Assembly: GCF_004005845.1 (NCBI RefSeq)
Contig: NZ_SADE01000001.1
Location: 434,001 to 498,000, forward strand
Direction: 5' to 3'
Length of the DNA: 64,000 nt
DNA from: Hwanghaeella grinnelliae
GTDB taxonomy: Bacteria > Pseudomonadota > Alphaproteobacteria > UBA8366 > Aestuariispiraceae
The notes beneath the pieces are model-generated. The model did no database searches, was not told the DNA's origin, and saw only the letters and a list, made by a program, of their open reading frames with translations. Shown piece after piece: positions 8,969-53,258 of the stretch. Numbering within the stretch: position 1 is the stretch's first letter; each line of letters starts with the position of its first letter. The translations under genes were made by a program, and so were the position numbers.

Positions 8969-9064
8969 CGGTACCGGCCAGCGCTGGTATTTCCGACTAT
9001 TTTTCTCCTACAATGTAGTGGCCATCGGATCGAAACTCCGGCAAGTGCGTGGGAGTCTTGAGAA

Positions 9065-28297: not shown

Positions 28298-28441
28298 CGT
28301 ACCCCCGCGTGGCTTGTTCCCGACTTAAAGCGTTGATGATCCGGGTGACGAGGAACCCGCCCCTTGTCCCGGTAGTGAAACGGCGGCTCGGCGATAAGGT
28401 CGAATGACGTCACGCCGGGCCGCCCTTTCGGTCGGCGCGCC

Positions 28442-29692: not shown

Positions 29693-29879
29693 AATTTCCT
29701 CCCGTCTAAGGTGAAGCGGCGCTTTGTTTTGATGCCCAACCTTTTCGATTGGATCTGTGCCGTTTCGTTGGCCTTGTTCGACCGTTGGACGAAAGTAGAC
29801 CCCTAGTGTCGACGAGAATCAAGAAATGACTTTAGGACTAATGCAAAGCCAGGTTGTTGAACACGCGTTCGAAAGCGGA

Positions 29880-34632: not shown

Positions 34633-34996
34633 GCTTTCGCGTCCTTTTTTCGAGATCGACATAAGTGTCGATCTTGGTGTCGAGGACGAGAAGCGAGGCT
34701 TGCAGATCGGCCAGATGGGCGCGCACCCGGTCACGGTGCATTTCCAAAATCTCCCGTCGTTCCGGACCGGTATGATCACCCTTTGTGCGAAGCTCCGCAT
34801 ACCGCAGCATTTCGCGGATCGGCATGCCGGTGGTCTTCAGGCGTTCCAAGAACCCGATCCAGACAAGAACCGAACCGTCATAGTCACGTTGCCCGCTGGC
34901 ATCGCGGTCTGCGGGCGGCAGCAGCCCGATCCGCTCATAGTAGCGGATTGTGTGGACCGATAACCCAGTGCGTTTTCCAAGCTCGCCGATCTTCAT
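34535..34996 (-). CDS. MerR-family transcriptional regulator
   Basis: A 153-residue regulator. The N-terminal winged helix (KIGELGKRTGLSVHTIRYYE) is perfect MerR, followed by a dimerisation helix around residues 80-120. No cysteines lie in the effector region, so it is not a metal sensor of the classical kind. It resembles NolA/AdhR-like members. It heads an operon with the CMD and propeller genes. Its own promoter has the diagnostic 19-bp spacer. Confidence 0.93.
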   Translation of the reverse strand: MKIGELGKRTGLSVHTIRYYERIGLLPPADRDASGQRDYDGSVLVWIGFLERLKTTGMPIREMLRYAELRTKGDHTGPERREILEMHRDRVRAHLADLQASLLVLDTKIDTYVDLEKRTRKHDDTRPPSPGNRSRAGKQTGSRNKIGTRAART

Positions 34997-35135: not shown

Positions 35136-36500
35136 TCAGGCGGTCCGGCGATGTTCGTAGGCGCCCAGTTCCGGGGCCTTGTGGAACTTGCCGTCCTTCA
35201 TGATGGCGACAAGGCGCGCATGGTCCTGCAGCAGCTTCACGTCGCGGGACGGGTCGCCATCCACCAGCAGCATATCGGCAAGGTTGCCTTCGCGGATCGT
35301 GCCCAGGCCATTCTCTTTTCCCAGACGCAGGCCCATCAATTGGCCGCCATACATGGTGGCCGCACGGATCGCTTCCAGCGGCGTGAAGCCCAGCATGTCG
35401 ACGAAATATTCCAGGTCCGTGGCATTGGTGCCGTGCGGGGTCCAGGCGAAACCGTAGTCGCCGCCGATCAAGACGCGGATGCCGCGCTTGTGCATCTCCT
35501 TCATGGACTCGATGGCGTGTTCCAACTCGCGCTCGTACATGTCGGTCAGCGGCGTGCCGGGCGTGATGCCGTATTCTCCGGCATTGCGGGCCGTGTTGAT
35601 CAGCCAGGCGATGGCGGGGGCGACGAAATGCTTGTCCTTGTTCGCCTCCAGCATGTCCATGCTTTCATTGTCATGGAACGAGGCATGGTAGATTACTTCG
35701 ATCCCGTATTTAACGCAGCGCTTGACCGATTCCTTCGACCGGGCATGCGCGGCCATGGCGCGGTGACGTCCCTTGGCTTCCGCCGCGATGATGGCAAGCT
35801 CGTCGTCGGCAAATTGGTTTTCTTCCGCGCCCATACCGGTGATCTCTTCACCGGACAAATTGATCTTGATGGTGTCGACGCCGATTTTCATCATCTCGCG
35901 CGTTTTCCGGCGGCAATCCTCGACGCCGGACACGACGATCCCCAGATTGAGGCCCTCATGCGGGATATGCGGCAGGGATGCATCGCCCAAACCGCCGACG
36001 GAGGTCAGTTCCGGTGTCGCCGCGGTATAGCGCGGGCCGGGCACCTTGCCTGCGTTGATCGCATCGCGGATGACGACATCCAGCCGGGGTTTCGCGGCGG
36101 CTGCGCCGTAACCGGCGGTGAAGCCGGAATCCAGCAGGATTTTCGCCATATAGACGCAATTCAGCATATGTTCTTCGATCGGCATCATCTGGATCGGGTT
36201 AATGCCGGGCGCGTTGTTCCAGCTGAGGTGCAGATGCGCGTCGATCAGGCCGGGCATCAGGGTCATGCCGCGACCGTCGATCCGCTGACCGCCATTGCTG
36301 TTCCAGCCATAGCTGCCTTGGCCGAAGCCGCCGCCTGAGCGCTGGACCGATTTGATACGGTTACCGGAAACGGTCACCTCGCCGTTGAACGGCTGTTCGC
36401 CGGTGCCGTCGATGATCCGAACATTGGTGAAGACAATATCGGACGACCCGTTGCCGTTACCGTTGCCGCCGCCCCATCCGCCAAAAGTCGACTCAGCCAT
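35136..36500 (-). CDS. Amidohydrolase with glycine/asparagine-rich insertions
   Basis: A 454-residue amidohydrolase of the imidazolonepropionase/prolidase-like group. The metal-binding HxH is His89-Leu-His91 in GLIDAHLHLSW. Further metal or catalytic positions are visible as YHASF and GGDYGFAWTPHG. Residues 7-18 (GGWGGGNGNGNG) and 56-72 (GGGFGQGSYGWNSNGG) are low-complexity stretches absent from ordinary members. They frame the first beta-sandwich strands. It lies 56 bp after the alpha/beta hydrolase and ends the 14-kb operon. The substrate is not known; hydrolysis of a C-N bond in a cyclic amide or similar is inferred. Confidence 0.88.
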   Translation of the reverse strand: MAESTFGGWGGGNGNGNGSSDIVFTNVRIIDGTGEQPFNGEVTVSGNRIKSVQRSGGGFGQGSYGWNSNGGQRIDGRGMTLMPGLIDAHLHLSWNNAPGINPIQMMPIEEHMLNCVYMAKILLDSGFTAGYGAAAAKPRLDVVIRDAINAGKVPGPRYTAATPELTSVGGLGDASLPHIPHEGLNLGIVVSGVEDCRRKTREMMKIGVDTIKINLSGEEITGMGAEENQFADDELAIIAAEAKGRHRAMAAHARSKESVKRCVKYGIEVIYHASFHDNESMDMLEANKDKHFVAPAIAWLINTARNAGEYGITPGTPLTDMYERELEHAIESMKEMHKRGIRVLIGGDYGFAWTPHGTNATDLEYFVDMLGFTPLEAIRAATMYGGQLMGLRLGKENGLGTIREGNLADMLLVDGDPSRDVKLLQDHARLVAIMKDGKFHKAPELGAYEHRRTA

Positions 36501-36556: not shown

Positions 36557-37330
36557 TCAATGCAAATGTTCTTTTAATAGGGACGCCGTTCTTCCGGGCG
36601 CTTCCATCATCATCCAATGGGCGACGTCTGGAATGACTTCCAGTCGTGCGCCCGTAATCGCCTGCGCCAGGGCTTTGCCCATTGGCACTGGCGCTACGGG
36701 GTCCTTTTCCCCCGCTATCAGCAAGGTGGGCGCCTTGATCGCATCGTGGCGCGCCGGTTTCGCCTCGCTTAAGGCGATGCAATGGTCCGCATAGCCACGC
36801 GGGTCCTGCCGCATCAGGCTCTCCCGCACAAAGGCAGGGACCACCGGGTTGGCCTTGCGTGAGGCTTCCGAAACGCTGCCGTGCGACACGGCATCGGCAA
36901 TGCCCGCCATACCGTTCGTCCGCGCCGCTTCCGCCCGCTCTTTCAAGCCGGCCCGCGCGGCAATAGGCGGTTCCAGTATAGGCCCCATCAGGGTGAGGGC
37001 AGTGACGCATTCAGGGTGCTGGGCGGCGATGTATTGGCACACCAGCGTTCCCATGGAATGGCCGACGAAATGGGCCTTGGCGACGCCGGCGGCGCGCAAG
37101 GCGTCCAGAACGTTGTCGGCCATGCCCTGTATGCCGGACCGGCCGGGCCGGATCGGGGAGCGCCCCGCGCCGGGCAGGTCCGGGCGCAGGACGCGGAATC
37201 CTTCCATGATCCCCATCAGGGGCTGGAAGCTGTTTGAATCCCCACCCAGGCCATGCACCATCACAACCGCCGGCCCGGTATCCGGCCCGGTAACTTCCAT
37301 GATCATGCTGCCCAGGCTGCGATCGGTCAT
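36557..37330 (-). CDS. Alpha/beta hydrolase
   Basis: A 257-residue alpha/beta hydrolase. MVHGLGGDSNSF gives the oxyanion region, GHSMGTLV the nucleophile elbow (serine), and the late histidine lies in PDVAHWMMMEAPG. The size and the PDLPGAGRSP strand resemble 3-oxoadipate enol-lactonase and C-C hydrolases. The ATG at 37330 comes two bases after the stop of the FAH gene; a TTG six bases earlier is possible. The preferred substrate is unknown. Confidence 0.9.
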   Translation of the reverse strand: MTDRSLGSMIMEVTGPDTGPAVVMVHGLGGDSNSFQPLMGIMEGFRVLRPDLPGAGRSPIRPGRSGIQGMADNVLDALRAAGVAKAHFVGHSMGTLVCQYIAAQHPECVTALTLMGPILEPPIAARAGLKERAEAARTNGMAGIADAVSHGSVSEASRKANPVVPAFVRESLMRQDPRGYADHCIALSEAKPARHDAIKAPTLLIAGEKDPVAPVPMGKALAQAITGARLEVIPDVAHWMMMEAPGRTASLLKEHLH

Positions 37331-37332
37331 GA

Positions 37333-38193
37333 TCAAATCGCCTCGACTGGGTTTTCCAAGGTACCGATACCGGCGATCTCGACCTTCACATTATCACCGG
37401 GGGTCAGGTATTTCGGCGGTTTGAAACCGATGCCGACGCCCGCCGGTGTGCCGGTGGCGATAACGTCGCCCGGCATAAGCGTGATGCCGTTCGAAATTGC
37501 CGCGATGATCGTTGGGACATCGAAGATCAGCAGGCTGGTATTCGAATCCTGACGAAGTTCTCCGTTGACCCAGCACTTGACCGTCGTGTCGCCCAGGTCG
37601 ATCTCATCCGCAGTGACGGCGACGGGACCCATGGGGCAGAACGTGTCCTGCGACTTTCCGATCAGCCATTGGCTGTGTTTGCCTTGCAGATCGCGGGCCG
37701 TGACATCGTTGATGACCGTGTATCCCCAAACATGGGAAAGAGCATCTTCCTTGGATATGTTGCGGCCGGACTTGCCGATGATGACGCCCAGTTCCGCTTC
37801 ATAGTCGACGGCGGTCGTGACCGAGGAATCCATCTTGATGGCGGCGCCGTCCGGAACCACCGTTTCCGGCAATTTGGAGAAAACGATGGGCGCTTCCGGG
37901 ACCGCACCCTTGGCGGCGGAACTGTCGAAACCGGAATTCGCAAATTCGTGGGCGTGTTCGTGATAATTCTTGCCGACGCAGAAGATGTTCCGATGTGGCC
38001 GGGGGATCGGCGCGCAGATTTTCACGTCGCCGATGGGAATGGTGTCCAAGGTGCCTGGAACATCGCGCCCAATCAGGGCGGCGACGCCGTTGCCATCCGC
38101 GGCAAGATCAAGGCGGTCAACCGTGTCGCCATTGCCCGACAGTTTGCCCAAATGGGTGCCGCCTTGCCATTCGAATACGCAGAACTTCATCAC
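37333..38193 (-). CDS. Fumarylacetoacetate hydrolase (FAH)-family protein
   Basis: A 286-residue FAH-fold enzyme. The metal-binding glutamates are visible in DYEAELGVIIG, with the NDVTARDLQ helix and the TGTPAGVGIG strand that line the active site. This group includes 2-keto-3-deoxy-acid hydratases, acylpyruvases and oxaloacetate decarboxylases, usually acting in catabolism of ring-cleavage or sugar-acid products. GxNYHEHAHEF is present near residue 75. It lies 9 bp after the fusion reductase gene. The exact reaction is unknown. Confidence 0.92.
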   Translation of the reverse strand: MMKFCVFEWQGGTHLGKLSGNGDTVDRLDLAADGNGVAALIGRDVPGTLDTIPIGDVKICAPIPRPHRNIFCVGKNYHEHAHEFANSGFDSSAAKGAVPEAPIVFSKLPETVVPDGAAIKMDSSVTTAVDYEAELGVIIGKSGRNISKEDALSHVWGYTVINDVTARDLQGKHSQWLIGKSQDTFCPMGPVAVTADEIDLGDTTVKCWVNGELRQDSNTSLLIFDVPTIIAAISNGITLMPGDVIATGTPAGVGIGFKPPKYLTPGDNVKVEIAGIGTLENPVEAI

Positions 38194-38202
38194 TTATCCT
38201 CT

Positions 38203-39678
38203 TCAGGTTTGGTCCGGTATCAGGATGGTTGATCCGGTGGTTTCGCGTGCTTCCAAAGCGCGATGCGCTTCCGCGGCGTCGCTCAATTTATACTTCTGTC
38301 CGATTTCGACTTTGACGGTGCCGCTTCGGATCGCGTCGAAAAGGTCGGCTGAAATCGCGGCGATCTTTTCCGGCGTGTCGGTGTAGTGACCGTAATTGGG
38401 GCGCGACAGCGTGACCGATTTGGACGCCAGGGAACTGACATTCCAGGACCCGATATCGCCGGACGCCTGACCGAAACTGACCAAGTGCCCGGGGGTCGCG
38501 AGCGCGGCAATGGAATGCGCGAAGCTGTCCTTGCCGACTGCATCGTAAATGACATCCGCGCCATGCCCTTTGGTCAGGTCCATGACTTGTTCTTCCAGGC
38601 TCTTCTCGCCCGGCGTAACGACGTGGTGGGCGCCGGCGGCGCGTGCGATCCGGGCCTTCGCTTCGGATGAGGTCGCGCCGATGACGGTCGCGCCCATTCG
38701 GTTTGCCCATTGGCACAGCATCCGGCCGACACCGCCCGCCGGCGCGTAGATCAGAACGGTCTGCTTCGGGCGCACGGCATGAACCTGATGCAGCAGAAAT
38801 TGGGCCGTCATGCCTTTCAACAAGCCTGCCGCTGCCGTCTCATCGTCGATCCAGTCAGGCAGAGGAATAACCAGCGCCGCACCCATGGTGCGGTGGCTGG
38901 TATAGGCACCGACCGGCGGGCAGGCATAGGCGACGCGCTGACCTTCACGCAGATGGCTGACGCCGGGCCCGATATCGATAACCTCGCCGGCGGCTTCCAT
39001 GCCGGGCGCCTGCGGCGGTTCCAACAGCTTGAAGTAACCGGTGCGGCAATAGACGTCGATATAGTTGACGCCGATGGCTGTTTGTTTGATCCGAACCTGG
39101 CCGGGCCCGGGTGCCGGTGCCTTGATCTTGGCCGCGTGCAGCTCTTCCGGTCCGCCGTGACGGTCGATAACCATGGCCGTCCCGTCGATTCCGTTGCCTG
39201 CCGAAAGGGCCGGAGCGGCGATACCTGTGCCGGGTCTGGTCCGTTCGACCCGTTCGCGGACGGCTTCGAACCCGGCTTCGTAGACGCCCTGGGTAACCAA
39301 ATCCCGCAATTCGTTTTCCTGGCCGGGCGGCGTATCGAATTTGGATGACCAGTGCCAGAAGGTTCTGTTGCCATCGGTGATCGGTTTGAGGCGCACCTCC
39401 GCCAAGTAGTTCTGCAACGGTACGTCCGCGTCGACGATGGCGTAACGGAACCGGTGTTCCTTGTCGGACAGGGACAGCAATTGTTCGCGGATCCGCTCGC
39501 CGCCTTGAAGCGTGAAGTTCCGGACCGCGCCGACTTGGTCGGTCTGTCGTCCGGCTTCCAGGCTGCTGCGGCGCACCGCCGGGTGCCAGCGGTCGTGGCC
39601 GTTGAAATCGCGCAGCACGTCCCAGACCGCCGCAATGGGCGCGTCTATGACTGTGCTGCACTCGACCTTGACCGACAT
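38203..39678 (-). CDS. SRPBCC domain fused to a quinone oxidoreductase (MDR)
   Basis: A 491-residue two-domain protein. Residues 1-147 form an SRPBCC/START-like ligand-binding domain, closely related to the stand-alone protein encoded 3 bp upstream. Residues 168-491 form a zinc-free quinone oxidoreductase of the QorA type, with APAGGVGR at 312-319 for NADPH binding. The frame is open and uninterrupted across the junction (39237-39170). The SRPBCC part may present a hydrophobic substrate to the reductase. I have not seen this pairing as a common architecture. The reaction is unknown. Confidence 0.9.
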   Translation of the reverse strand: MSVKVECSTVIDAPIAAVWDVLRDFNGHDRWHPAVRRSSLEAGRQTDQVGAVRNFTLQGGERIREQLLSLSDKEHRFRYAIVDADVPLQNYLAEVRLKPITDGNRTFWHWSSKFDTPPGQENELRDLVTQGVYEAGFEAVRERVERTRPGTGIAAPALSAGNGIDGTAMVIDRHGGPEELHAAKIKAPAPGPGQVRIKQTAIGVNYIDVYCRTGYFKLLEPPQAPGMEAAGEVIDIGPGVSHLREGQRVAYACPPVGAYTSHRTMGAALVIPLPDWIDDETAAAGLLKGMTAQFLLHQVHAVRPKQTVLIYAPAGGVGRMLCQWANRMGATVIGATSSEAKARIARAAGAHHVVTPGEKSLEEQVMDLTKGHGADVIYDAVGKDSFAHSIAALATPGHLVSFGQASGDIGSWNVSSLASKSVTLSRPNYGHYTDTPEKIAAISADLFDAIRSGTVKVEIGQKYKLSDAAEAHRALEARETTGSTILIPDQT

Positions 39679-39681
39679 GGA

Positions 39682-40119
39682 TCAGCTCCCGAATTTTTCT
39701 TTCAGGGCGTTGAAGCCGCCCTGGAAGACGCCGTTGCCGACCAGGTCGGTCAGCTCGGATTCGCGACCGGGCGCGCAGTCGAATTCCGCCGACCATTCGG
39801 CGAAGGTGCGGTTGCCGTCGGTGATCGGGGTCAGTTTCAGGGTCGCGACATAGTTTTCCACGCCCATCGGGCTTTCCAGGATCGAATAGGTGCAGGAAAA
39901 ATCATAGTCGCTGAGTGCCAGCAACTGCTCGCGGATAAAGCCGCCATCCTTCAGACGGAAGGCGCGGACGCATCCGACCTGGTCCGATGGCTGGCCGCCC
40001 TCAATCCGGCTTTCGGCAATCGCCGGATGCCAGTTGGGCAGGGCGTTGAAGTCCCGCACGGCCGCCCAGAGGCGGTCGGCGGGCGCTTCGATGACGGAAG
40101 ATGTATAGACCTCGACCAT
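39682..40119 (-). CDS. SRPBCC-family (polyketide cyclase/START-like) protein
   Basis: A 145-residue single SRPBCC domain. It shares the pattern DFNALPNWHPAI, IREQLLALSD and LTPITDGNRTF with the N-terminal domain of the next gene (DFNGHDRWHPAV, IREQLLSLSD, LKPITDGNRTF), so the two are paralogues. These domains have a deep hydrophobic pocket and bind lipids, polyketides or aromatic compounds, sometimes catalysing cyclisation. The ATG at 40119 is two bases after the flotillin stop. Confidence 0.9.
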   Translation of the reverse strand: MVEVYTSSVIEAPADRLWAAVRDFNALPNWHPAIAESRIEGGQPSDQVGCVRAFRLKDGGFIREQLLALSDYDFSCTYSILESPMGVENYVATLKLTPITDGNRTFAEWSAEFDCAPGRESELTDLVGNGVFQGGFNALKEKFGS

Positions 40120-40121
40120 GA

Positions 40122-42176
40122 TCAATCGTCCGACTTATCGGTCTTGTTGGACTTGGCGAGACTTTGGGCGTCCTTCGCGCTGCGGAAGATATCACCCATC
40201 TTGGCGACATTCGGATTTTCGACGCCGATCTCCTTCATCAACTCGTCGATCAGCGGGGCCTGGGCCCGATAGCGCAGCGCGCTTTCGATGACTTCGTCCG
40301 TCGGCGACCGACTGCCGCCGCCACCGCCGCCGGTCAGCCCGTCCACATGCAGGATCTTGATGCCTTCGATGTTCTCCATCGGCTTGACGCTTTCCCGCAC
40401 GATACCTTCCAAACGGTCGATCATCTTCGACCGCAGCTGGCCGGCGCGCGCATCCTCGGTCAGGATGTTCTCCGCCTCGTTCTTCAGGCGTTGTGCTTCG
40501 GCCGCGACCGCCGCCGTGACCTTGTCGGCCTCGGCCGCGATTTGGCGGGTGTCCGCGTCCTTGCGGGCGATCATGCGATCGATGGATGCAAGGCGTTCGG
40601 CAACTTCGGTTTCGCGCGTGGTGTTGACCTTTTCCTCGGCCTCCACCGCGCGGGCACGGACCGCTTCCACACCGACGCGGGTTTCCGCTTCCTCGGCCTG
40701 CTTCTGCAGCACGGCGATCTGACGTTCGATTTCCGCCAGTTCCAGAACCTGCGCGCGCTCGACCTCAAGCCGCTTCAAATCGCGGTCCTGCACGATGCGC
40801 GCTTCTTCCAAACCACGGTCGGACGCGATACGGGCGCGTTCGATTTCCTCGCGGGCTGAGATCTCCGCTTCCTCGATGGTTTGACGCTGGGCGATCTGTT
40901 GCGAGCGCAGCAGGCGGTCGCGTTCGATGCGGGCCTTGTCCAAGGTCTGGTCCAGGGAAATCCGGGCGGTTTCGACGGCCTTGTTGGCGCCGATCTTGGC
41001 GGTCTCGATTTCCTGGCCGCGGGCGATGTCGCGGGCCTCGGTTTCCTGATCGGCCATGATCCGCGCTTCGCGCAACTGACGCTCGGACACGATTTTCGAC
41101 CGCTCAAGATCTTCGTTCGCAGTAATTTCGGAGCTTTCGACGTCGTGGCGCTGTTTGATCTGTTCCTGACGGATCAACCGTTCGCGCTCGATGCGGGATT
41201 TCTCCAGGGATTGTTCCTGCGCGATGCGGGCCTGTTCGACCTCCTGATGCGCCTTGATTTCTTCTTCTTCCAGCGACCGGCGCTGTTCGATTTCGTAGGT
41301 CCGGGTTTCCCGGTCCGTCGTGATACGGGACCGTTCGATTTCCGCCTGGCGGGTGACGCGGGTGCGTTCTATCTCCGCCCGTTGCTCGGCCCGCAAGGAT
41401 TCCAGCGTGCGTTCCTGGTTCAGGCGGGAGCTTTCGCTCTCCTCCTCAAGCTTCAGGGTTTCCTTTTCCGCTTCCAAATTCCGGGTACGGATCGCCAGCA
41501 TGGAGGACTGTTCAATATCGTTGCGCAACTTGCGGCGGGACTCGATGGTCTCGATCAGCTGCGTCAAACCTTCGGCGTCGAACCGGTTGGCCGGGTTGAA
41601 GAATTCCAGGTTGGTCTGGTCCAGATCCGTGATCGCGACCGATTCAAGTTCCAATCCGTTCTTGGCCAAGGCTTCAGCCGCACGTTTCTCGACGATCTCG
41701 ACATAGTCGCCGCGCTTCTCGTGCATTTCGTCCAGGCTCAGTTCCGCTGCGACGGACCGCAACGCACTGATGAATTTCCCGGACAACAGTTCGGCCAGTT
41801 GGGCCGGATCCGTCGTGCGGCGACCGAGGGTCGAGGCCGCGGCTGCAACCGCCGTCTTTTCCTGCACCACGCGGACGAAGAAGTCGGCTTCGATATCGAC
41901 CCGCATGCGGTCACGGGTGATGACCGCCTCTTCCTTGGTGCGGGCGATTGGGATGCGGACGACGTTCAGGTTGACCGGCGTCACCTCGTGGACGATCGGC
42001 AACACCAGTGCGCCGCCATTTATCACGACCTTTTCCCCGCCGAAGCCGGTGCGGACGAAGGCTTCTTCCTTGGTGGAGCGGTGATATAGCCAGTTCAGCA
42101 AATAGACGGCCACGACGATCACGATGATCGCGACGATGAGCCAGAGAATGATCGATCCTATCAGACCGGTAGTCAT
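40122..42176 (-). CDS. Flotillin-like SPFH protein with hendecad coiled coil
   Basis: A 684-residue flotillin-like protein. A transmembrane helix (about 9-30) anchors it, and an SPFH/band-7 domain spans about 35-225 (GGALVLPIVHEVTPVNL, SLDEMHEKRGDYVEIV). A coiled coil runs from 230 to 600, and a Gly-rich tail (TGGGGGGS) precedes the C-terminus. From residue 241 to 483 a hydrophobic residue recurs every 11 positions, 22 steps without a break. SPFH proteins assemble into membrane cages or microdomains. No NfeD-type partner gene is adjacent. It sits between the PEP-hydrolase-like and SRPBCC genes in the 12-gene operon, so a tie to the transporter or to membrane handling of a hydrophobic substrate is plausible. 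Confidence 0.92.
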   Translation of the reverse strand: MTTGLIGSIILWLIVAIIVIVVAVYLLNWLYHRSTKEEAFVRTGFGGEKVVINGGALVLPIVHEVTPVNLNVVRIPIARTKEEAVITRDRMRVDIEADFFVRVVQEKTAVAAAASTLGRRTTDPAQLAELLSGKFISALRSVAAELSLDEMHEKRGDYVEIVEKRAAEALAKNGLELESVAITDLDQTNLEFFNPANRFDAEGLTQLIETIESRRKLRNDIEQSSMLAIRTRNLEAEKETLKLEEESESSRLNQERTLESLRAEQRAEIERTRVTRQAEIERSRITTDRETRTYEIEQRRSLEEEEIKAHQEVEQARIAQEQSLEKSRIERERLIRQEQIKQRHDVESSEITANEDLERSKIVSERQLREARIMADQETEARDIARGQEIETAKIGANKAVETARISLDQTLDKARIERDRLLRSQQIAQRQTIEEAEISAREEIERARIASDRGLEEARIVQDRDLKRLEVERAQVLELAEIERQIAVLQKQAEEAETRVGVEAVRARAVEAEEKVNTTRETEVAERLASIDRMIARKDADTRQIAAEADKVTAAVAAEAQRLKNEAENILTEDARAGQLRSKMIDRLEGIVRESVKPMENIEGIKILHVDGLTGGGGGGSRSPTDEVIESALRYRAQAPLIDELMKEIGVENPNVAKMGDIFRSAKDAQSLAKSNKTDKSDD
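40698..41456 (-). repeat. Region encoding 22 steps of an 11-residue (hendecad) repeat
   Basis: In the flotillin-like protein, positions 241, 252, 263, 274, 285 and so on to 483, always +11, are L, L, A, V, then Ile at every step from 285 to 461, then V and I. A second hydrophobic residue is usually present six positions later (I-x5-L/I/V-x4). The register never slips by a residue over about 250 residues, which predicts a right-handed or straight hendecad coiled coil rather than a heptad one. Confidence 0.9.
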
Positions 42177-42190
42177 GGTCTTTCTCCCCC

Positions 42191-43039
42191 TCAGCCGGTT
42201 TTGCCCGAGGCAGTGGTAATTGCCTTGAAGGCTTTTGTTTGTTCGGTAAGCGCGATTTCGGTCGGCAGACGCTCCATCGAGGAGGCGCCGTAGAAACCGT
42301 GGCAGTGATCGGTATTGTCCAAGATGTACTGGGCGTCATCGGGCATCGCGACTGGGCCCCCATGAACAAGCACGAGGACTTCCGGGTTAACCCGCCGCGC
42401 GGCCTCGGACCAGGCGTTCACCATGGCAGGGCAATCTTCCAGCTTCAGCGAGGTTTCGGCCCCGATGGAACCACCGGTCGTCAATCCCATATGGCAGACG
42501 ATGATATCCGCGCCGGCCGCTGCCATGGCGGTGGCCTCGTCCTCATTGAAGACGTAAGGCGTGGTCAGCAGGTCCTTTTCGTGGGCCATGCGGATCATGT
42601 CGACCTCCTGACCATAGGACATGCCGGTTTCTTCCAGATTGGCGCGGAAGGTGCCGTCGATCAGCCCGACCGTCGGGAAGTTCTGGACGCCGGAAAACCC
42701 GACGGCTTTCACCCGGTCGAGATATTCGTCGAAGATGCAGAAGGGATCGGTACCGTTCACGCCCGCCAGGACCGGCGTGTTTTGCACCACCGGCAGAACT
42801 TCATGCGCCATTTCCATGACGATGTCGTTGGCGTTGCCATAGGCCATCAGGCCCGAGAGCGACCCGCGGCCCGCCATCCGGTAACGGCCGGAGTTGTAAA
42901 TCACGATCAGGTCGATGCCGCCGGCTTCTTCACACTTGGCCGACAGGCCCGTGCCCGCGCCGCCGCCGATTATCGGCTGGCCGTTCCGCCGCATGGTGTG
43001 AAACTTTTCAAGAAGTGTCTTTCGCTCAATGCGCGGCAT
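42191..43039 (-). CDS. PEP-hydrolase-family TIM-barrel protein (Tm-1 C-terminal-half homologue)
   Basis: A 282-residue TIM barrel of the PEP_hydrolase / TIM-barrel signal transduction family. Characteristic segments are [44 protein letters not shown] and [15 protein letters not shown]. In many organisms this domain forms the C-terminal half of Tm-1-like proteins; here it is a separate gene that overlaps by 14 bp the gene encoding the other half. It also has two relatives within 10 kb, at 50817 and 51525. The enzyme activity is not established for the family. It lies 14 bp before the flotillin gene. Confidence 0.92.
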
Positions 43040-45311
43040 TGCGGGCCTCTCTTCTCATCGGATTGATTTCGTCCAACGCCCTGACGGCCGCATCCGCGAA
43101 GCCGGGGTCGTTGATGTGATGGGGAACCCGGACCAAACGCCGGTTCGGGCTTTCCTGGAAGTTGCGGGCGATCGCCTCGAACAGGGCTGCGTCGGCTTCC
43201 GGATCGTGGAAAGCCTGGCCCGGCGCGTCGAGCGCGGAAACGCCTTTTTCTGGGATCAGGAAACGCACCGGTCCGTCCATGCGATTCAGGCGTTCGACGA
43301 TCCATTCGCCCATGCGGACATTCTCGTCCCGCGTGGTGCGCATCAGGGTGACCTGCGGATTATGTTCGACGAAGGTCCGGTTGTTGTATTTCTCGGGCAC
43401 GGTATCGCGCGCGCCGAAGTTCACCATGTCGAGTGCGCCGACGGAACCGACATAGGGAATGCGGGTGCGGATGAAGGCGCCGAAACGGTCCTCGTCGGCC
43501 GCGAACACGCCGCCCATCATCATGTCGCAGACCTCGGTCGTGGTCAGGTCGATGGCCGCCGACAGCATGCCGCTATCGGCCAGTTTTTCCATCGACTTTC
43601 CGCCGACCCCGGTGGCGTGGAAGACCAGGCAATCGTAGCGGTCTTCCAATTGCGCCGTGATCTGCTGGACCGCCGTTGTGGTGACCCCGAACATGGTCAG
43701 TCCAAGGCCGGGTTTGTCTGTAGAGGCCGGACGCTCGGTGCGGGCCGATTTGACCATCCCGGCGATGGCGTTAGCGCCGTTGGCCAAAACGCGGCGGGAG
43801 ATTTGGTTCAAGCCCTGCACGTCGGTGACGGAATACATCATCATGATGTCAGCCGGGCCGACATACTGGCCGACATCGCCGGAAGCGACGGTGGAGATCA
43901 TGACCTTAGGCACGCCGATGGGCAGGCGCCGCATTGCTGGCGTGGCGAGCGCCGTGCCGCCGGACCCGGCCGCCGAGATCACGCCGCCGATGCCGCGTTG
44001 CCGGGGCAGCCAGTTTTCGAACGCCTCCTGCATGGCGCGGATGGATGCACCGCGATCACCGCTGAAGACCGATCCCGCGCCACCGCGCGCATAGGCCGCG
44101 ACCATGTGCGGCGGGACGTCGGCTGAGGATGGTTTGCCAGATGTGGACAGGTCTACGGTGCGGACGCTGAGGCCCCGCTCGACGATCCGGTCGCGGATAT
44201 AGTTCAATTCCGCGCCCTTGGTATCGAAGGTGCCGACGACATAGACATCGTCGCCGCGCAACAATTCCAGCGGGGTCAGCGGTTCCGCGAAAACCGGTTC
44301 CGGCTTCGCGTCGAAGGGGCGGGCCGGTTTCGCCACGGTTTGCTTCGCCGGGCGTTCGCCCGGTTTGCCGTCCTGCCAATGGGCGCTCGACCAACGGGTC
44401 GGCGGCACATAGACCAGTGTCGATTTTTCGTCCGGCGCGGTTTCTTCCGTCCGGTCGTCTTGGGGTTCCTCCCGCTCCACGACCGGTTCTTCGGTGTCAT
44501 CGGGCTTTGCAGCGGATGTTTCCTGTGGTGCTGATGCGGGGATCATCGGCAGGTCGACATCGTCGTGCGAATGGCGCCCGACACCCAGAAGACGTTCTTG
44601 CAAGGTGCGGTCGGCGGCCAATTGCTTGGCGGGCATCACATTGCCCACGCGCCCGTTCACCATGATCGCGACGTCTTCGGAGACGGAGGTGGCGACGGCA
44701 ATATTCTGTTCGATCAACAGGATCGTCACATCGCTTTCTTCCGCCAATGTCCGCAGCAGGTTTTCGACCTGATCGACGATGACGGGGGCGAGTCCTTCGG
44801 TGGGCTCATCCAGGATCAACAGGCTTGGGTCCTGCAGCAAGGCGCGGGAGATCGCGACCATCTGCTGTTCGCCGCCGGAAAGCTGACCGGCCCCATTGCG
44901 ACGGCGTTCGTATAGGCGGGGGAATGTGTCGTAGACGCGGTCGATGGTCCAACTGCGGCCGCTGCCGGAAACCAAGCGCAAATGCTCTTCCACCGTTAGC
45001 GAGGGCCACAGGCGGCGCCCCTGTGGGCAATAGCCGACCCCGATGGACGAAATCCGATGGGTTGGCTGGCCGGTGATTTCCTGGCCTTCGAACTGAACCG
45101 ATCCGCGCCGTGCGGGCAGCAGCCCCATGATGGCGTTGCACAGTGTCGTCTTGCCCATGCCGTTCCGGCCGACGATGGACAGCACGCCGCGGTCGAGCGT
45201 CAGGTTCACGCCCTGCAGCGCATGCGAATGCCCGTAATAGACATGCAGGTCCCGAACCTGCAGGACCGGGGCGTTGGAATTTCCGCGGCGGTTGCGATCA
45301 GCCATGACCAT
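43026..45311 (-). CDS. LivF ABC ATPase fused to a Tm-1-like (UPF0261) domain
   Basis: A 761-residue fusion. Residues 15-245 are a LivF-type ATPase with Walker [10 protein letters not shown] (48-56), signature LSGGE (144-148) and Walker B LLILDEP (164-170). A charged, proline-rich linker spans 246-352. Residues 353 to about 755 are a UPF0261/Tm-1-like domain ([32 protein letters not shown], then [13 protein letters not shown]). The frame is open throughout. It fills the LivF slot of the operon, directly after livG, and is followed by the TIM-barrel gene that normally pairs with UPF0261. The transporter ATPase thus carries a probable nucleotide-binding metabolic or sensor domain on the cytoplasmic side. 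Either of two ATGs, 45311 or 45305, may start it. Confidence 0.92.
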
Positions 45312-46083
45312 GCCCCAGATAAAGTTCCTGTACCTCCGGATCGTTTTCGATCTCTTCCGGTGTGCCTTCCTTAAAGATCCGGCCGTTATGCATCATGGTG
45401 ACCGACTCCGAGACGCGCAGCGCCACATCCATGTCGTGTTCGATGATGATGAAGCCGATATGGTCTGGCAGCGCCTGAAGGATTTCGACCAGTTCGGTTC
45501 GCTCCGTCGGGGAAAGACCGGCGGCGGGTTCGTCGAACAGGATCAGACGCGGCGCGCCGGCCAGCGCCAGCGCGATTTCCAACTGCCGCTGCTGGCCGTG
45601 GCTCAAATCCCCGACGGGCGTGTCGCGTACATTGTCCAGATGGACGGCGGAAAGAAGGGTTTCGGCGGCTTCCATGCCGCTGTCGTCCTTGCGGGGGCGG
45701 CGCAGGGAGAATCTCCCGCGGCTCACGCCCCGGCAGGCGAGATAGATATTGTCGATGACGCTGAGGCCGCCGAACAGAAGGGAAATCTGGTAGGTGCGGC
45801 GAAGGCCGCGACGGATCCGCTCATGAACCGGCAGATCCGTCACGTCTTCTCCGAACAGACGCACGCGACCGGTGGTCGGGGGAAAGTCCCCGGTGATCGC
45901 GTTGAACAGGGTGGTCTTGCCCGCACCGTTGGACCCCAGGACCGCCCGCCGCTCACCCGCCTTGACGGTCAGGTTGATGTCCGCCAGCGCCACGAGCGCG
46001 CCGAAATGGCGGCTCACGGCCTCAAGTTCCAGCGCGTAAAGGCCGGCACTTTGCAGACGGGAGAGGGCGGAGGTCGAAGGCAT
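45298..46083 (-). CDS. Liv-type ABC transporter ATPase LivG (second system)
   Basis: A 261-residue ABC ATPase. Walker [10 protein letters not shown], the signature LSHGQQR and Walker [14 protein letters not shown] are all present, and the C-terminal LivG extension ends in GHGHG. It should dimerise with the LivF part of the fused protein, whose gene it overlaps by 14 bp. The first 20 residues before [12 protein letters not shown] are an extension of unclear purpose; an internal start is possible. Confidence 0.94.
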
Positions 46084-46119: not shown

Positions 46120-47370
46120 TTAGTTGCAGGGCGGGTTTTCACGACCGACCTGGCCATATTCCAGGAACTTGTCGTAGGAAACGCCCAGGGTTTGGTTGAC
46201 CTGCGGAATGACCTTGACGGTCTTGTTAACCAGATTGCCGTCCGGCCCTTCGATGACTTCCGTCAGGAAGATGTCGGCGACGGCCTGGCGGCGTTCGTCC
46301 AGATGGACTTTGCCGGTCGGTGTTTCGAACTCAAGGCTCGACAGGGCTTCACGATACTTCTTGCCGCCGTCGGAAAGATCGCCATTCACTTCGTTGAGCG
46401 CCAGCAGGGCTGCCTTCGTGTTGATGTAATAGGCGTGGGCGAACAGCGAAGGTGACGGGAATCCGTCCGGGAACTGCTTTTTGTAGGCAGCCACGAACTT
46501 GTTCCAGCGTGGGTCGTCCCAGGTATCCGACACCGGTCCGGCCGACGGTGTGCCGATGATGAAGTCACGCGTCCGGCCTTTGGAGCCCAGAACCGTTTGG
46601 TCGACCGTGATCGAACCGCCGATCAGGGGCAGTTCGCCGCCGGCCTGCTCGTACTGGGTCAGGAAGTTGACCGCGTCCGCGCCACCAAGCGCGACGTAGA
46701 TGGCGTCGACATCGTCGGGCAATGCGGCAATGACCGAGGAATAGTCCTTGTTGCCGATCGGAACCCAGAAACGGGCATCGACCGGGGCGCTACCGCCGAG
46801 ACGGCAGAACGGCTCAAGGAAACCGAAGACCTGCGTATAGGGGAAGGAATAGTCTTCCGCCAGGACGGCCACGGACCGATAGCCCTTGTCGTTATAGACA
46901 TACTCGCCCAAGCCGGCCATCCACTGCGCGCCTTCAGTCGAGAAACGGAAGAAGTTGTCCGCCGGGCTGCGCAACGTCGTGTCCTGCGCGGCGGACGAGC
47001 CGTTCAGGAAAGTGACGTCGGGCTGGGTCTTGGCATAGTCCTTGACCGCCAGGCCTTCAGACCCGGAAAGCGGCCCGACCAAAATCTGGACCCCGTCCTG
47101 TTCCACTAGTTTACGCGTGGCGCGGATCGCGCTGTCCGGCGATGCGTCGGACGAGCCCGTGATCAGTTCGATCTTCTTGCCGCCGGCGGAATAGCCGAAT
47201 TCTTCCAGCGCCAGTTTGACGCCGCGCATGCTGTCTTCGCCCAGGACCGTGAAGGCCCCTTCCAAGGTCGCAAGCGCACCCATCTTGATGCTGTCCTGCG
47301 CCATGGCGCCGGTACCAGCGAACGACAGCAGCGCCGCCGCCGCTAGGCTTTTACCCAAATTACCGATCAT
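46120..47370 (-). CDS. ABC transporter substrate-binding protein (second system)
   Basis: A 416-residue type I periplasmic binding protein. The signal peptide ends at GTGAMA, near residue 24. The mature part starts SIKMGALATLEGAFTVLGED. It is clearly different from the two LivK copies of the first system. GGGAGGTAACG precedes the ATG at 47370, which fixes the start; upstream codons lack a signal sequence. The ligand is unknown. It ends in NPPCN. It lies between the permease and ATPase genes of the operon, so it is the receptor for this transporter. Confidence 0.93.
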   Translation of the reverse strand: MIGNLGKSLAAAALLSFAGTGAMAQDSIKMGALATLEGAFTVLGEDSMRGVKLALEEFGYSAGGKKIELITGSSDASPDSAIRATRKLVEQDGVQILVGPLSGSEGLAVKDYAKTQPDVTFLNGSSAAQDTTLRSPADNFFRFSTEGAQWMAGLGEYVYNDKGYRSVAVLAEDYSFPYTQVFGFLEPFCRLGGSAPVDARFWVPIGNKDYSSVIAALPDDVDAIYVALGGADAVNFLTQYEQAGGELPLIGGSITVDQTVLGSKGRTRDFIIGTPSAGPVSDTWDDPRWNKFVAAYKKQFPDGFPSPSLFAHAYYINTKAALLALNEVNGDLSDGGKKYREALSSLEFETPTGKVHLDERRQAVADIFLTEVIEGPDGNLVNKTVKVIPQVNQTLGVSYDKFLEYGQVGRENPPCN

Positions 47371-47404
47371 CGTTACCTCCCAAACACGGTTATAGAAACT
47401 CGGT

Positions 47405-48472
47405 TTATTGTTCGAACGATGGGGCAGTTTGCCCGTCGTCCCGTTCTGCCCGGGCATTTCTGCGCCGCGCATTCCAGTTGAGCCCGATGCGGTTGCGCAC
47501 CTTGCTCCAAATTCCAAGAAGTCCATCCGGCGAGAACAGCACCACCAGCAGAAAGGCCAGGCCGATCACGGTGTTGAACCGTTCGCGGTCGATCAGGTCG
47601 ATGGCGAAGTTCTCCAGCAGAACGAAGGCGATGGCCCCCAAGAAGGGACCGACCGGATGCCGCATGCCGCCGACGACCGCGATCACCAGAATATCGATGG
47701 CGACGTCGACGCCGACGGAACCGGGTGATATCCGGCCGTTGAACCAGACCAGCAATACGCCCGCGGTGCCGGCGATGATGCCGGACATGAAATAGGCGAC
47801 GATCCGATGCACGGTCACGTCATAACCGAGCGCGTGCATGCGGCGGGGATTGTCGCGGATGGCTTGCAGGCTGAGGCCGAAATTCGCCCGCGCGCCGTAC
47901 AGCACCATGAAGAAGAAGAAGGCGGCCAGGGCCAGGGTCAGGTAATAGAAGGGAATTGGGGCGCGCCAATAGACACCGAACAATGTAGGGGGCTCGACCC
48001 CGGCATAGCCGGTAAACCCGTTGAACAGCGCATAGTTCTGCCGCACGAAGTAGAAGAACGCGACCGCGATCGCCAATGTGATCATGATCGTGTAGATGCC
48101 CTCGGTCCTGACCGAGATCGCACCGATCAAGGCGCTGAAGACAGCCGCGCCCAGGATCGCGACCGGGATGGTCAACCACCAGGGCCAGCCCAATCCCATC
48201 ACGCCGACACTGTTGTCGCCAAAGATCGCCATCAGGTACCCGGCGAAACCGGCGACGGTCAGCTGTGCCAGGCTGACCATGCCGCCATAGCCAGCCAGCA
48301 TCATCAGCGACAGCGCGACCATGCCCAGGATCAGCGAATACGCGCCGATCTGATAGGTGAAAAAGTCGGAGGTGAAGGTCGGGTAGGCGAGCAGGAAGAC
48401 GGCCACGACGATTTTCGCCGGATGGATGTCCGTCCACGCACTGTTGCCGGAAAAGAGGCCGCCTGTCGCCAT
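47405..48472 (-). CDS. Liv-type ABC transporter permease LivM (second system)
   Basis: A 355-residue inner-membrane permease with about ten hydrophobic segments. LAGYGGMVSLAQLTVAGFAGYL and GGMRHPVGPFLGA are typical LivM landmarks. The C-terminal tail is hydrophilic and basic (RRRNARAERDDGQ), probably cytoplasmic. It starts 3 bp after the livH stop and ends 34 bp before the binding-protein start. Confidence 0.94.
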   Translation of the reverse strand: MATGGLFSGNSAWTDIHPAKIVVAVFLLAYPTFTSDFFTYQIGAYSLILGMVALSLMMLAGYGGMVSLAQLTVAGFAGYLMAIFGDNSVGVMGLGWPWWLTIPVAILGAAVFSALIGAISVRTEGIYTIMITLAIAVAFFYFVRQNYALFNGFTGYAGVEPPTLFGVYWRAPIPFYYLTLALAAFFFFMVLYGARANFGLSLQAIRDNPRRMHALGYDVTVHRIVAYFMSGIIAGTAGVLLVWFNGRISPGSVGVDVAIDILVIAVVGGMRHPVGPFLGAIAFVLLENFAIDLIDRERFNTVIGLAFLLVVLFSPDGLLGIWSKVRNRIGLNWNARRRNARAERDDGQTAPSFEQ

Positions 48473-48475
48473 TGC

Positions 48476-49486
48476 TCAGCGCCCTCCCATGATGCCCTGC
48501 GGGCGGACGGCCAGCACGACGACCATGATCAGGAAGGTCAGGACCACCCCGTAGGTCGGGAAATAGGCCAGGCCGAACTGTTCCGCCAATCCGACGAGCA
48601 GCGCGCCGATGGCGGCCCCCGTCACGGAGCCGAGACCGCCGACGATGACGACGATGAGCGAGGCCAGCAGATAACGGATATCCTCGCCGGGCGCGATGGA
48701 AAGGGCGGTCCCCCCGACGACGCCGGCAAACCCGGCGAGGCCCGCGCCGATGGCGAAGACCAGGGCGAAGACCAGTTGCACGTTGACGCCGCTGGCGGCC
48801 AGCATCTGCCGGTCGTTCACGCCCGCACGGATCATCATGCCGATCCGCGTGCGGTTGAGGAACAGCCACAGCCCGATGCCGACCGCGACAGCGGCGACCA
48901 GCACGGCCAGGCGATAGATTGGGTATTTGATATAGACGGCGGCGCCGGATGATTTGACGACCGAGATGATCGGCAGTTGGGTCGCGCCGAACAGCCATTC
49001 GGGCGGCTGGAACTGATAGGTCGTGCCGGTCCAGATCGCCAGCATCAGGTCCGCCGCGATGATGGATATGCCGATTGTGACCAGCGTTTGGCGCAAGTCA
49101 TCGCCTTCCATGCGGCGGAAGATCAACACCTGCAACAGAATGCCGCTGACCGCGATGGCGAGGAAGGCGACCAGCAGTCCGAAGAACCAGCTGCCGCTAG
49201 CTTCCGCGACTTCGTAGCCGATATACGCGCCCAATAGATACATTGAACCATGGGCGAGGTTCACGTTCCTCATAAGGCCGAAGACCAGCGTGAAGCCGCT
49301 GGCGACCAAAAAATACAAACCGCCCAGCGTCACGCCGTTGAAGAAGGTGTTGACGAAGGTCTTCTTCCGGCCGATCGCCGAGATCAACCAATCCGGCCAG
49401 ACGGCAAAAATCATCCATAGGAAGACGGCCGCGGCCAGGAAGATCACGATGGCCCAGAAGGTATGGCGTTCAACAAAACTGCGCAT
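48476..49486 (-). CDS. Liv-type ABC transporter permease LivH (second system)
   Basis: A 336-residue permease. LVFGLMRNVNLAHGSMYLLGAYIG and the late GGLGSVTGAAIGALLVG segments are LivH features. The N-terminus has an extra hydrophobic stretch (about 10-35) before the usual start of homology. It is the first gene of the 12-gene operon that runs to 35136 on the minus strand. The promoter should lie in the 626-bp gap beyond 49486. Confidence 0.94.
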   Translation of the reverse strand: MRSFVERHTFWAIVIFLAAAVFLWMIFAVWPDWLISAIGRKKTFVNTFFNGVTLGGLYFLVASGFTLVFGLMRNVNLAHGSMYLLGAYIGYEVAEASGSWFFGLLVAFLAIAVSGILLQVLIFRRMEGDDLRQTLVTIGISIIAADLMLAIWTGTTYQFQPPEWLFGATQLPIISVVKSSGAAVYIKYPIYRLAVLVAAVAVGIGLWLFLNRTRIGMMIRAGVNDRQMLAASGVNVQLVFALVFAIGAGLAGFAGVVGGTALSIAPGEDIRYLLASLIVVIVGGLGSVTGAAIGALLVGLAEQFGLAYFPTYGVVLTFLIMVVVLAVRPQGIMGGR

Positions 49487-51524: not shown

Positions 51525-53258
51525 TCAGCCTGTCAGGCCGAACTTCTTGATCTTGTTGTAGAGCGTCTTGCGGGACATGCCGAGGGCCTCGGCCGTACGG
51601 CTGCGGTTGAAGCCGTTTCGCCACAGGGCATCGACGATCCGTTCCTTCTCACCGCCCCGCGCGGTCGGGCCGGCTGCGGCGGCGCCATCCAGGCGGGACA
51701 AAACAGTGTCCTCCGCGATGGGGCCGCGCGCCGTTTCGGCTGACAGGTCGGTGAGCAGGGCGGTCAATTCAGCCTCGTTGCCGGGCCAGGCATGGGTTTC
51801 CAGCCGCCGCAGCGCACTGGCCGTGAAATCCTGCCGCGTGATGGCAAGGCCGGTTTCGACGCAATCGAACAGGTCTTCCACCCTTTCCCGCAAGGGCGGA
51901 ACTTTCAAAACTGCACCGCCCAAGGCTTCCGCCAATTGAGAATCCAGGCCAAGTACCGACGGGTCCAGGGTATCCGAACTGCCGGCCACCGCGCAGACGA
52001 GGACCACCCGCGTGGTGACGGGAACCGGGCGCCAGGACCCGGGCGCCCGAAATGTACCGTCGGTCAAGGCGCGCGCCAGCCGTCGCTGGGTCGCGACCGG
52101 CAGCCGTTCCGCCGCGCGGATCGCCAGCACGCTGATACCGGGATCGGAAAGGCCCGGCAGCCGTCGGTCGATCGTATCGCGATGGCCGAACAGAAGGTTG
52201 CGGGCGCGGCCCGGAAACTCCTCCCCCGCCAGGTCGATGGTGACGACCGGCGCTTGTCCCGGTTTCCGCGATGTCGGCTTGCCGGCAAGCGCGGTAAGGC
52301 TGGGTATGGTCGGGCTGCCTTTTTCCGCCAATAGCAGGACGGGGCGGTCCAATTCGGCCAGCGATCGAAGGCGTTCAAGGTAATTCAGCAGGGCGGGGGA
52401 ATGGCCGTTGAAACCAAAGCCCCGGCCCCAGGCCGTCAGCCGGTTTTCCTTTTCGTCCAGCGCGGCGCCCTTACTACTCGCCTGCCGGAACCGGTCGATC
52501 TGATCGGCGACGGAAATTTCCAGCGGCATGCGTTCGAAAGTGGAGCCTCCGACATAGCCGTCGATATCGGCGAGGCGCACCACCCGCGCCAAATCCTCCG
52601 CCGTTTCGATGGGGCCGCCTTCCAGCAGGAAGCGCGTCTTCGGGCTGATCCGTTTGATCAGGCGACCGATCTCCCGCGCCATGGCGGCCACTTCCTCAAG
52701 CGAGGCGCGGGCTTGGTGCCCGACGGACCCGCCGACATTCCAACCGAGGTTCAGACAGACGAGGTCGAGCCTCGCATCCGCCGCCAACCGCGCCTGGGTC
52801 CTGGTCGCGCAATAGAACATCGCGGTCAGACCCCGGTCCTGGACCGCGCGCAACTGTTCCACTTCGCGTTCGATGCCGCGGCCGGCACGCGAGAGGATCT
52901 GCTGCATCGGGCGGGAATAATGCATGCAACTGGGAAAGTTCACCGCGCCGGCGAAACCCTGTTCCTTGATCGCTGCGGCCGTGGCGGCGAAGTCGAGATC
53001 TTCTTCCCAAACATTCAGCCCGATCAGGACCGGTATGTTGCACTGGGTCAGAAGTTCGGTCCGCGCGAAACCGTCGGTCAGGGTACGGGCATCGAAAATC
53101 GGTAACATGCAGGCAATCGACGGCGCCCCCATGCTGCGCAGCCGCCCGGCATTGATGGCCAGCAGAAAGTCGGCGCCGCCGCGCTCCGCCGCCAGCCCGG
53201 TGCTGCCGGAGCCGATGGCCGCGCCGATCAGGAATTTTCCCTTAAGTCCCGCGTTCAC
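51525..53258 (-). CDS. TIM-barrel / degenerate NtrC-like regulator fusion
   Basis: A 577-residue protein. Residues 7-255 form a PEP-hydrolase-type TIM barrel (IGAAIGSGSTGLAAERGGAD, NAGRLRSMGAPS, GAVNFPSCMHYS). Residues about 300-505 resemble the AAA+ domain of sigma-54 activators, but Walker A is degraded to AEKGSP (311-316) and no GAFTGA loop exists. VPPLRERVEDL (453-463) and WPGNEAEL (491-498) remain. Residues 536-575 are a Fis-type helix-turn-helix (NRSRTAEALGMSRKTLYNKI). It probably binds DNA under control of a small molecule in the barrel, without driving sigma-54 polymerase (inference). It ends 10 bp from the convergent TIM-barrel gene. Confidence 0.9.
   Translation of the reverse strand: MNAGLKGKFLIGAAIGSGSTGLAAERGGADFLLAINAGRLRSMGAPSIACMLPIFDARTLTDGFARTELLTQCNIPVLIGLNVWEEDLDFAATAAAIKEQGFAGAVNFPSCMHYSRPMQQILSRAGRGIEREVEQLRAVQDRGLTAMFYCATRTQARLAADARLDLVCLNLGWNVGGSVGHQARASLEEVAAMAREIGRLIKRISPKTRFLLEGGPIETAEDLARVVRLADIDGYVGGSTFERMPLEISVADQIDRFRQASSKGAALDEKENRLTAWGRGFGFNGHSPALLNYLERLRSLAELDRPVLLLAEKGSPTIPSLTALAGKPTSRKPGQAPVVTIDLAGEEFPGRARNLLFGHRDTIDRRLPGLSDPGISVLAIRAAERLPVATQRRLARALTDGTFRAPGSWRPVPVTTRVVLVCAVAGSSDTLDPSVLGLDSQLAEALGGAVLKVPPLRERVEDLFDCVETGLAITRQDFTASALRRLETHAWPGNEAELTALLTDLSAETARGPIAEDTVLSRLDGAAAAGPTARGGEKERIVDALWRNGFNRSRTAEALGMSRKTLYNKIKKFGLTG

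Follow-up and report, generated by a model that had tools for sequence, protein, structure and literature searches.

A LivF-type ABC ATPase joined in one frame to a UPF0261/Tm-1 domain: an importer subunit with a candidate tethered kinase in Hwanghaeella grinnelliae and its relatives

What would an importer do with an enzyme-family domain built into its ATPase? The question is raised by one gene of Hwanghaeella grinnelliae, found in a 64,000-nucleotide stretch of contig NZ_SADE01000001.1 (positions 434,001 to 498,000; this whole stretch is called the window below), in which a LivF-type ATP-binding cassette (ABC) ATPase is joined to a UPF0261/Tm-1 domain. The gene runs on the minus strand, which the original prediction did not specify, from 45311 to 43026 and encodes 761 amino acids in a stop-free frame. 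In agreement with the original prediction of an uninterrupted frame, which was made from the sequence alone, the Pfam check returned three matches over their cut-offs: ABC_tran at residues 32-171 (105.6 bits, cut-off 25), the UPF0261 N domain at residues 355-523 (206.6 bits, cut-off 27) and UPF0261_C at residues 533-749 (305.2 bits, cut-off 27). The gene is built up as follows.

43026..45311, minus strand: fused livF-UPF0261 gene, consisting of a LivF-type ABC ATPase, a linker and a UPF0261/Tm-1 domain (open reading frame and Pfam)
44577..45311, minus strand: LivF-type ATPase part, residues 1-245, motifs intact, Gln at the H-loop place (Pfam and motif reading)
44250..44576, minus strand: linker, low complexity, predicted to be disordered, RW at residues 306-307 (composition, alignment and model)
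43065..44249, minus strand: UPF0261 N and C domains, residues 355-749, a putative kinase-family domain (Pfam and fold model)

The ATPase half is the complete LivF-type ATPase that had been predicted: Walker A, the Q-loop, the signature (LSGGEQQ) and Walker B (LLILDEP) all read as intact from the sequence, and the core residues are invariant among 50 aligned fused proteins. At the H-loop place, the fused ATPase has Gln (IEQN), whereas its partner LivG has His (IEHD); the LivF family likewise carries Gln at this place. With LivF/UrtE-type ATPases the fused protein shares the full motif set and the partners livH, livM, livG and a substrate-binding protein. It differs from them by its second, enzyme-family domain and by scores that lie under both equivalog cut-offs, at 155.8 against 441 bits for LivF (NF008626, E. 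coli-type branched-chain amino acids) and 218 against 285.8 bits for UrtE. A role as a branched-chain amino acid importer is thus unsupported, although the ATPase is LivF-like.

The fusion is neither rare nor local. In the named-species genome scan, ATPase piece and UPF0261 stand in one frame in 75 of the best 80 loci, a share that is valid for close relatives only; under a stricter 150-bit limit on the ATPase part the number is 73, as two loci at contig ends (L050 and L074; loci and genomes carry L and G numbers) drop out. The five non-fused loci are L056 (contig end), L090 (broken frame), L081, L115 and L123. UPF0261_C occurs in 55 of the 387 genomes of a class sample, 21 of them with a frame of at least 740 amino acids; all 20 frames fetched are livF plus UPF0261, and the twenty-first is that of the window. 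A phylum sample of 397 genomes has a UPF0261_C match in 51 (49 over the cut-off), and its frames of at least 740 amino acids are livF plus UPF0261 in 15 of 15 cases (11 new, three already in the class sample, and the window), a count that leaves out a 1127-residue protein of genome G771. This last protein (L187:4090-7470) is another UPF0261 fusion, in which the C-terminal part is a HAD hydrolase domain and some 460 residues at the N-terminus match nothing in Pfam; an aldehyde dehydrogenase relative adjoins it, and liv-type genes lie on the opposite strand. Within the examined stretch of the 77 fused loci (the 75 named ones and two plasmid records), no separate livF was found on the operon strand; the fused protein thus serves its transporter as LivF. 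The original prediction had not met the fusion as a known system. In the genomes, the fusion is the rule within one clade that spans, by record titles, Alpha-, Beta- and Gammaproteobacteria, Bradyrhizobium included. Literature searches found no paper that describes it, with most subscription papers outside reach. Two annotated records of the fusion, one in RefSeq and one in GenBank, are named "ABC transporter permease", a label that hides it.

The fusion has a single origin in a tree of UPF0261 domains, where 97 fused rows fall into one clade (99 in the Shimodaira-Hasegawa-like approximate likelihood ratio test, SH-aLRT) together with two unfused rows, L081 and L115. The tree was built by a quick method from 130 rows, with its root set on L139, and leaves out eight rows: L050, L056 and L074 (contig ends), L090 (broken frame) and the distant L186, L136, L137 and L187. 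The fewest changes that fit it are three, one gain and two later losses, if the root lies outside the clade. In L115 (9719-11221), a UPF0261 protein without the LivF half keeps a linker-like stretch in front, a remnant that is expected if the LivF half was lost. The original prediction had named separate genes in close relatives as the sign of a false fusion. This did not hold: the two-gene versions that were found lie outside the fused clade, and the exceptions are L081 and L115, nested in the clade and lacking a LivF half, and L090 with its broken frame. One row of the tree, L085, is titled Frankia sp. RB7 and falls within Bradyrhizobium; it is probably a mislabelled genome.

Outside the clade, the same genes are found side by side. 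In Thermomicrobium roseum (L021:13386-18917), two permease genes, a substrate-binding protein gene, livG, livF, UPF0261 and a gene of the PEP_hydrolase family (PEPH below) follow one another in that order, and the unfused LivF terminates where the linker would start. Two loci from the class of the window, L172 and L174, show the same unfused order. In five class-sample genomes (L181-L185), liv genes occur with PEPH, SRPBCC and UPF0261 in a different order, and in Haloarcula liv genes lie a few genes away from a UPF0261-PEPH pair. The tie to Liv-type importers thus recurs outside the fused clade. In T. roseum, the operon goes on to a PEP/pyruvate-binding protein and a PEP-utilizing enzyme, reminiscent of two-part aromatic kinases such as HpeHI. 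Two distant UPF0261 genes, L136 and L137, have no PEPH nearby; their neighbours are a carboxylase and a HAD protein, or a Tct transporter, an aldehyde dehydrogenase and an aminotransferase.

The two halves of the fused protein are joined by residues 246-354, a linker of 109 amino acids with 17 Pro, 24 Asp/Glu and 13 Lys/Arg. The original description of about 100 proline- and acid-rich residues therefore stands, but the linker is more than a spacer. All 72 script-parsed linkers of fused proteins, which are 78 to 168 residues long and of low complexity, contain an RW pair, in most cases as P[TN]RW. By eye, PTRW was found in two further linkers outside the script's pattern (L069 and L093), so that the pair occurs in 74 of 74 readable linkers in a set of 75 fused proteins, L118 being unreadable at a contig end; RW is also present in the 11 fused loci added later from the phylum sample. 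A chance origin of the motif is ruled out, as 200 rounds of shuffling left RW in a mean of 7.9 of the 72 linkers, with a maximum of 16. The motif is taken as a putative docking site. In the full-length AlphaFold model both halves are well defined and the linker is disordered, with a predicted local distance difference test (pLDDT) below 50 at residues 256-297, 306-308 and 315-328.

The fused gene belongs to an operon with the conserved order livH-livM-substrate-binding protein-livG-[livF-UPF0261]-PEPH-flotillin-SRPBCC. In the window, the genes around it are the following.

51525..53258, minus strand: likely regulator with a PEP_hydrolase-like domain (two His replaced) and a Fis-type helix-turn-helix (alignment)
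48476..49486, minus strand: LivH-type permease, BPD_transp_2 (Pfam)
47405..48472, minus strand: LivM-type permease, BPD_transp_2 (Pfam)
46120..47526, minus strand: periplasmic substrate-binding protein, Peripla_BP_6 (Pfam)
45298..46083, minus strand: LivG-type ATPase (Pfam)
42191..43039, minus strand: PEP_hydrolase (PF09370) TIM barrel, 282 amino acids, His183 and His226 kept (Pfam)
40122..42176, minus strand: flotillin-like protein, Band_7 and Flot (Pfam)
39682..40125, minus strand: SRPBCC protein, Polyketide_cyc2 (family match)
38203..39678, minus strand: SRPBCC domain fused in frame to a quinone oxidoreductase-like enzyme (family match)
37333..38193, minus strand: fumarylacetoacetate hydrolase family (family match)
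36557..37336, minus strand: alpha/beta hydrolase, PcaD-like, under the equivalog cut-off (family match)
35136..36500, minus strand: amidohydrolase (family match)
34177..34800, minus strand: carboxymuconolactone decarboxylase family (family match)

The importer set of the window is complete, with LivH, LivM, the binding protein and LivG beside the fused LivF and no other livF in the operon. Overlaps of 14 bp tie both ends of the fused gene to its neighbours, livG upstream (46083..45298) and PEPH downstream (43039..42191). The same company is kept at the 65 fused loci with at least 9 kb upstream (match starting at position 9000 or later; named loci and the two plasmid records, some of them cut downstream): livG is present at 65, livM, livH and the binding protein at 64 each, PEPH at 61, flotillin at 59 and SRPBCC at 57. 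Most of these gaps lie at contig ends, which account for the absence of PEPH at L098 and L128 and of flotillin at L053, L084, L098, L127 and L128; the genuine exceptions are L099, without PEPH, and L062. Further downstream, two layouts are found among the 77 fused loci, one of the window type (SRPBCC-quinone oxidoreductase fusion or amidohydrolase; 22 loci) and one of the Bradyrhizobium/Rhodobacter type (molybdenum hydroxylase, usually with an AraC regulator; 43 loci); L105 is counted in both through a weak hit, and 13 loci fall in neither. From their enzyme families, both layouts look like aromatic or heteroaromatic breakdown. The binding protein has solved relatives (4zpj, 4ey3 and others) that may hint at aromatic acids. 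Relatives of the single-frame SRPBCC-quinone oxidoreductase protein (38203-39678) occur in operons of the window type. The window also holds a second liv-type group (24584-31115, minus strand), in which the genes of two substrate-binding proteins lie in tandem (29880-31115 and 28442-29692) and one LivF-like frame is 45% identical to the fused LivF.

What the UPF0261 half may do is suggested by its structural relatives. Modelled by itself (mean pLDDT 89.5), the domain matches tomato Tm-1 (3wrw_D) with Z 46.0 and a root-mean-square deviation (rmsd) of 1.6 over 384 residues at 45% identity, and PDB entry 9mpy with Z 31.7 and an rmsd of 7.3 over 389 residues at about 30% identity. The title of 9mpy names Saro_1862, a Novosphingobium aromaticivorans protein of the UPF0261 family, crystallised with acetovanillone bound. 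In a paper of 2026, acetovanillone catabolism in this species is reported to begin with MarK, "a single-component kinase" (PMC13101465). Species, substrate and family suggest that MarK is Saro_1862. The acetovanillone route consists of phosphorylation, carboxylation and dephosphorylation, with the kinase acting first (PMC9618137), and the setting of a Sphingomonas bisphenolicum UPF0261 gene, whose product scores 578 bits to 9mpy and which adjoins biotin-carboxylase, carboxylase and HAD genes, matches this phosphorylate-then-carboxylate route. Across 26 UPF0261 proteins of the PEPH-linked and MarK-like groups, the window protein among them and ten of them fused, 29 positions are invariant, among them (window numbering) Asp363, Lys365, Glu368, Lys469, Asp488, Asn502, His565, Asp588, Glu593 and Arg609. 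The window domain is of the same family as Saro_1862, the putative MarK, and shares the invariant residues with it; it differs in that Saro_1862 is free-standing, about 30% identical and from a group without PEPH, whereas the window protein is fused and PEPH-linked. The original statement that the function of Tm-1-like proteins in bacteria is largely open has accordingly lost part of its force, and the bound acetovanillone and the single-component kinase MarK make a kinase likelier than a generic nucleotide sensor. More distant folds (PurE, UDP-GlcNAc 2-epimerases, cutinases and others; Z at most 10.6) were left unused, since they may only reflect a common arrangement. A signature-tagged mutant screen in Brucella lists a mutation in the UPF0261 gene BMEII0128 among the attenuating ones (PMC2364660), an indication that the family is of importance in vivo in Brucella.

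The PEPH gene of the window (43039..42191) gives a full-length PF09370 match of 440.2 bits against a cut-off of 33.8 and has a solved relative, 2p10. It is the triose-phosphate isomerase (TIM) barrel that had been predicted as the very next gene with a 14-bp overlap, and corresponds to the other half of plant Tm-1 (PMC5028733). In the phylum sample, PEPH occurs in 31 of 397 genomes, the same 31 in which UPF0261_C reaches at least 285 bits, a limit picked after the lists were seen; in the other genomes of this sample with a UPF0261_C match, no PEPH was found. The two families are described as co-evolving (PMC5028733) and are paired by phylogenetic profile in fungi (PMC8963296). The five enzymes compared keep residues His183, His226, Arg58, Gln119 and Thr187, which show no variation in an alignment of 31 PEPH proteins; catalysis by the enzyme form probably relies on His183 and His226. 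In three PEPH-domain regulators (window 51525-53258, NGR234 and Terrarubrum), these five residues are replaced and Asp43, Arg52 and Arg257 stay; the barrel has been re-used in regulators, where it probably senses a compound belonging to this pathway. The window regulator has no Pfam match to the sigma-54 AAA domain. A weak PEP_hydrolase relative, below the cut-off, is also encoded at 50655-51515 on the plus strand, after a GntR gene.

Taken as a working model, the operon would encode a Liv-type importer whose LivF subunit carries, on a flexible tether, a UPF0261 domain acting as an ATP-dependent kinase of small molecules, a reading in which our confidence is evenly balanced. The importer (binding protein, LivH, LivM, LivG and LivF) would bring in an aromatic or similar hydroxy compound, which the tethered kinase would phosphorylate at the cytoplasmic mouth, trapping it and starting its breakdown. 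The phosphorylated product would then pass to the PEP_hydrolase-type TIM barrel of the next gene. The SRPBCC and flotillin proteins would probably serve to retain or pass on, at the membrane, a substrate of low solubility, and the last steps may be carried out by hydrolases (window type) or by a molybdenum hydroxylase (Bradyrhizobium type). A trapping role would be in keeping with a suggestion by the authors of the acetovanillone work, namely that an aromatic able to diffuse is retained by phosphorylation within the cell (PMC9618137, PMC12167813); in the window system, pump and trap would form a single molecule. Of the two couplings put forward in the original prediction, uptake tied to a first enzymatic or to a sensing step, the enzymatic one is the better reading. 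A version that goes further, and is less likely than not, is a group-translocating ABC importer, in which the compound would be phosphorylated as it leaves the permease, within a flotillin membrane patch, with the RW motif docking to LivG, PEPH or flotillin.

Several observations weigh against the model of a kinase-bearing importer. MarK is presumed to be Saro_1862, the window domain is only about 31% identical (120 of 391 positions) to a close relative of 9mpy, and we know of no measured activity for any PEPH-linked UPF0261 protein. MarK-like members sit with a carboxylase and the window group with PEPH, so the reaction may differ. The AlphaFold model fixes no arrangement of the ATPase and UPF0261 halves (predicted template modelling score, pTM, 0.56), and in it the RW motif is itself disordered, with no docking within the chain. 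Neither is the gene set without gaps. No PEPH lies beside the fusion at L099, L196 and L198, and L062 (10001-11218) has livG beside it but, within 10 kb, no relative of livH, livM, the binding protein, PEPH or flotillin. The genomes of these four loci (G774, G526, G467 and G775, respectively) hold one PEPH each elsewhere, which in G526 and G467 lies beside a second, unfused UPF0261. In Vibrio and Serratia, UPF0261-PEPH pairs have no importer annotated nearby, so the pair can work without one.

This last point bears on a different explanation, in which UPF0261 is a pathway enzyme for a later intermediate and the fusion only sets its dose and membrane location. UPF0261 and PEPH do occur away from liv genes, and the operon has several other enzymes. 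Yet the first step of the acetovanillone route is that of the kinase (PMC9618137), UPF0261 and PEPH directly follow livF in the unfused versions too, and no enzyme gene stands ahead of them in the window operon, which leaves this explanation somewhat unlikely. Importer ATPases often carry C-terminal regulatory domains, and UPF0261, placed C-terminal to the ATPase on a flexible linker, could be one of these, a regulatory sensor of ATP or of a pathway compound that tunes the ATPase without chemistry. The re-use of PEPH in regulators with its likely catalytic residues replaced shows a comparable change in the partner family. It is here that the two families part, however: the PEPH regulator domains have lost His183 and His226, whereas the ten fused proteins in the 26-protein set keep all 29 invariant positions in common with free-standing members of both groups. 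Many relatives outside the fused clade (not L178, L186 and L187) are moreover free-standing beside PEPH, and a sensor is therefore unlikely. The pairing with PEPH, seen in 31 of 31 genomes of the phylum sample and absent wherever the matches are only of the weaker, MarK-like sort, would also fit a two-part enzyme made of PEPH-linked UPF0261 and the TIM barrel that carries out another ATP-dependent reaction and is not a simple phenol kinase; in plant Tm-1, the two are one chain (PMC5028733). Against this, the domain shares family, fold and invariant residues with the acetovanillone-binding protein, and such an enzyme appears improbable. A frameshift, an assembly error or a chance joining of two genes is ruled out: one relative, L090, has a broken frame and the window locus has none, and the fusion is in frame in 75 of the best 80 named loci and in each of 31 additional long frames (20 of 20 and 11 of 11), with a common linker motif.

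The model of a kinase-bearing importer can be set beside systems that are already described. Tm-1 inhibits the replication of a tomato virus. The likeness of the window protein to it lies in the UPF0261 fold and in a barrel of the same family encoded by the next gene; in plant Tm-1, UPF0261 is fused to the barrel (PMC5028733), whereas in the window it is fused to the ABC ATPase and PEPH is a separate gene. HpeHI, AcvAB and phenylphosphate synthase, two-part kinases that phosphorylate an aromatic before its breakdown, are work-alikes (PMC9618137, PMC12167813) but have an unrelated fold, of ATP-grasp and swivel domains (PMC12167813), and no transporter fusion is mentioned in the passages covered. 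No family of the phosphotransferase system (PTS) was found among the operon genes scanned. PTS group translocation couples uptake to phosphorylation. If the model holds, the window system would resemble it in this coupling and differ from it in being an ABC importer.

The protein thus combines a known importer ATPase with a known enzyme family, and the joint may change what the importer can do. Should the model prove true, this would be an importer driven by ATP that has a kinase for its substrate built in; uptake coupled in this manner is otherwise known chiefly from the PTS. It would give a testable function to the UPF0261/PEPH pair, from haloarchaea to the plant virus-resistance protein Tm-1, and would point to an unrecognised and widespread pathway of uptake and breakdown in proteobacteria, including Bradyrhizobium.

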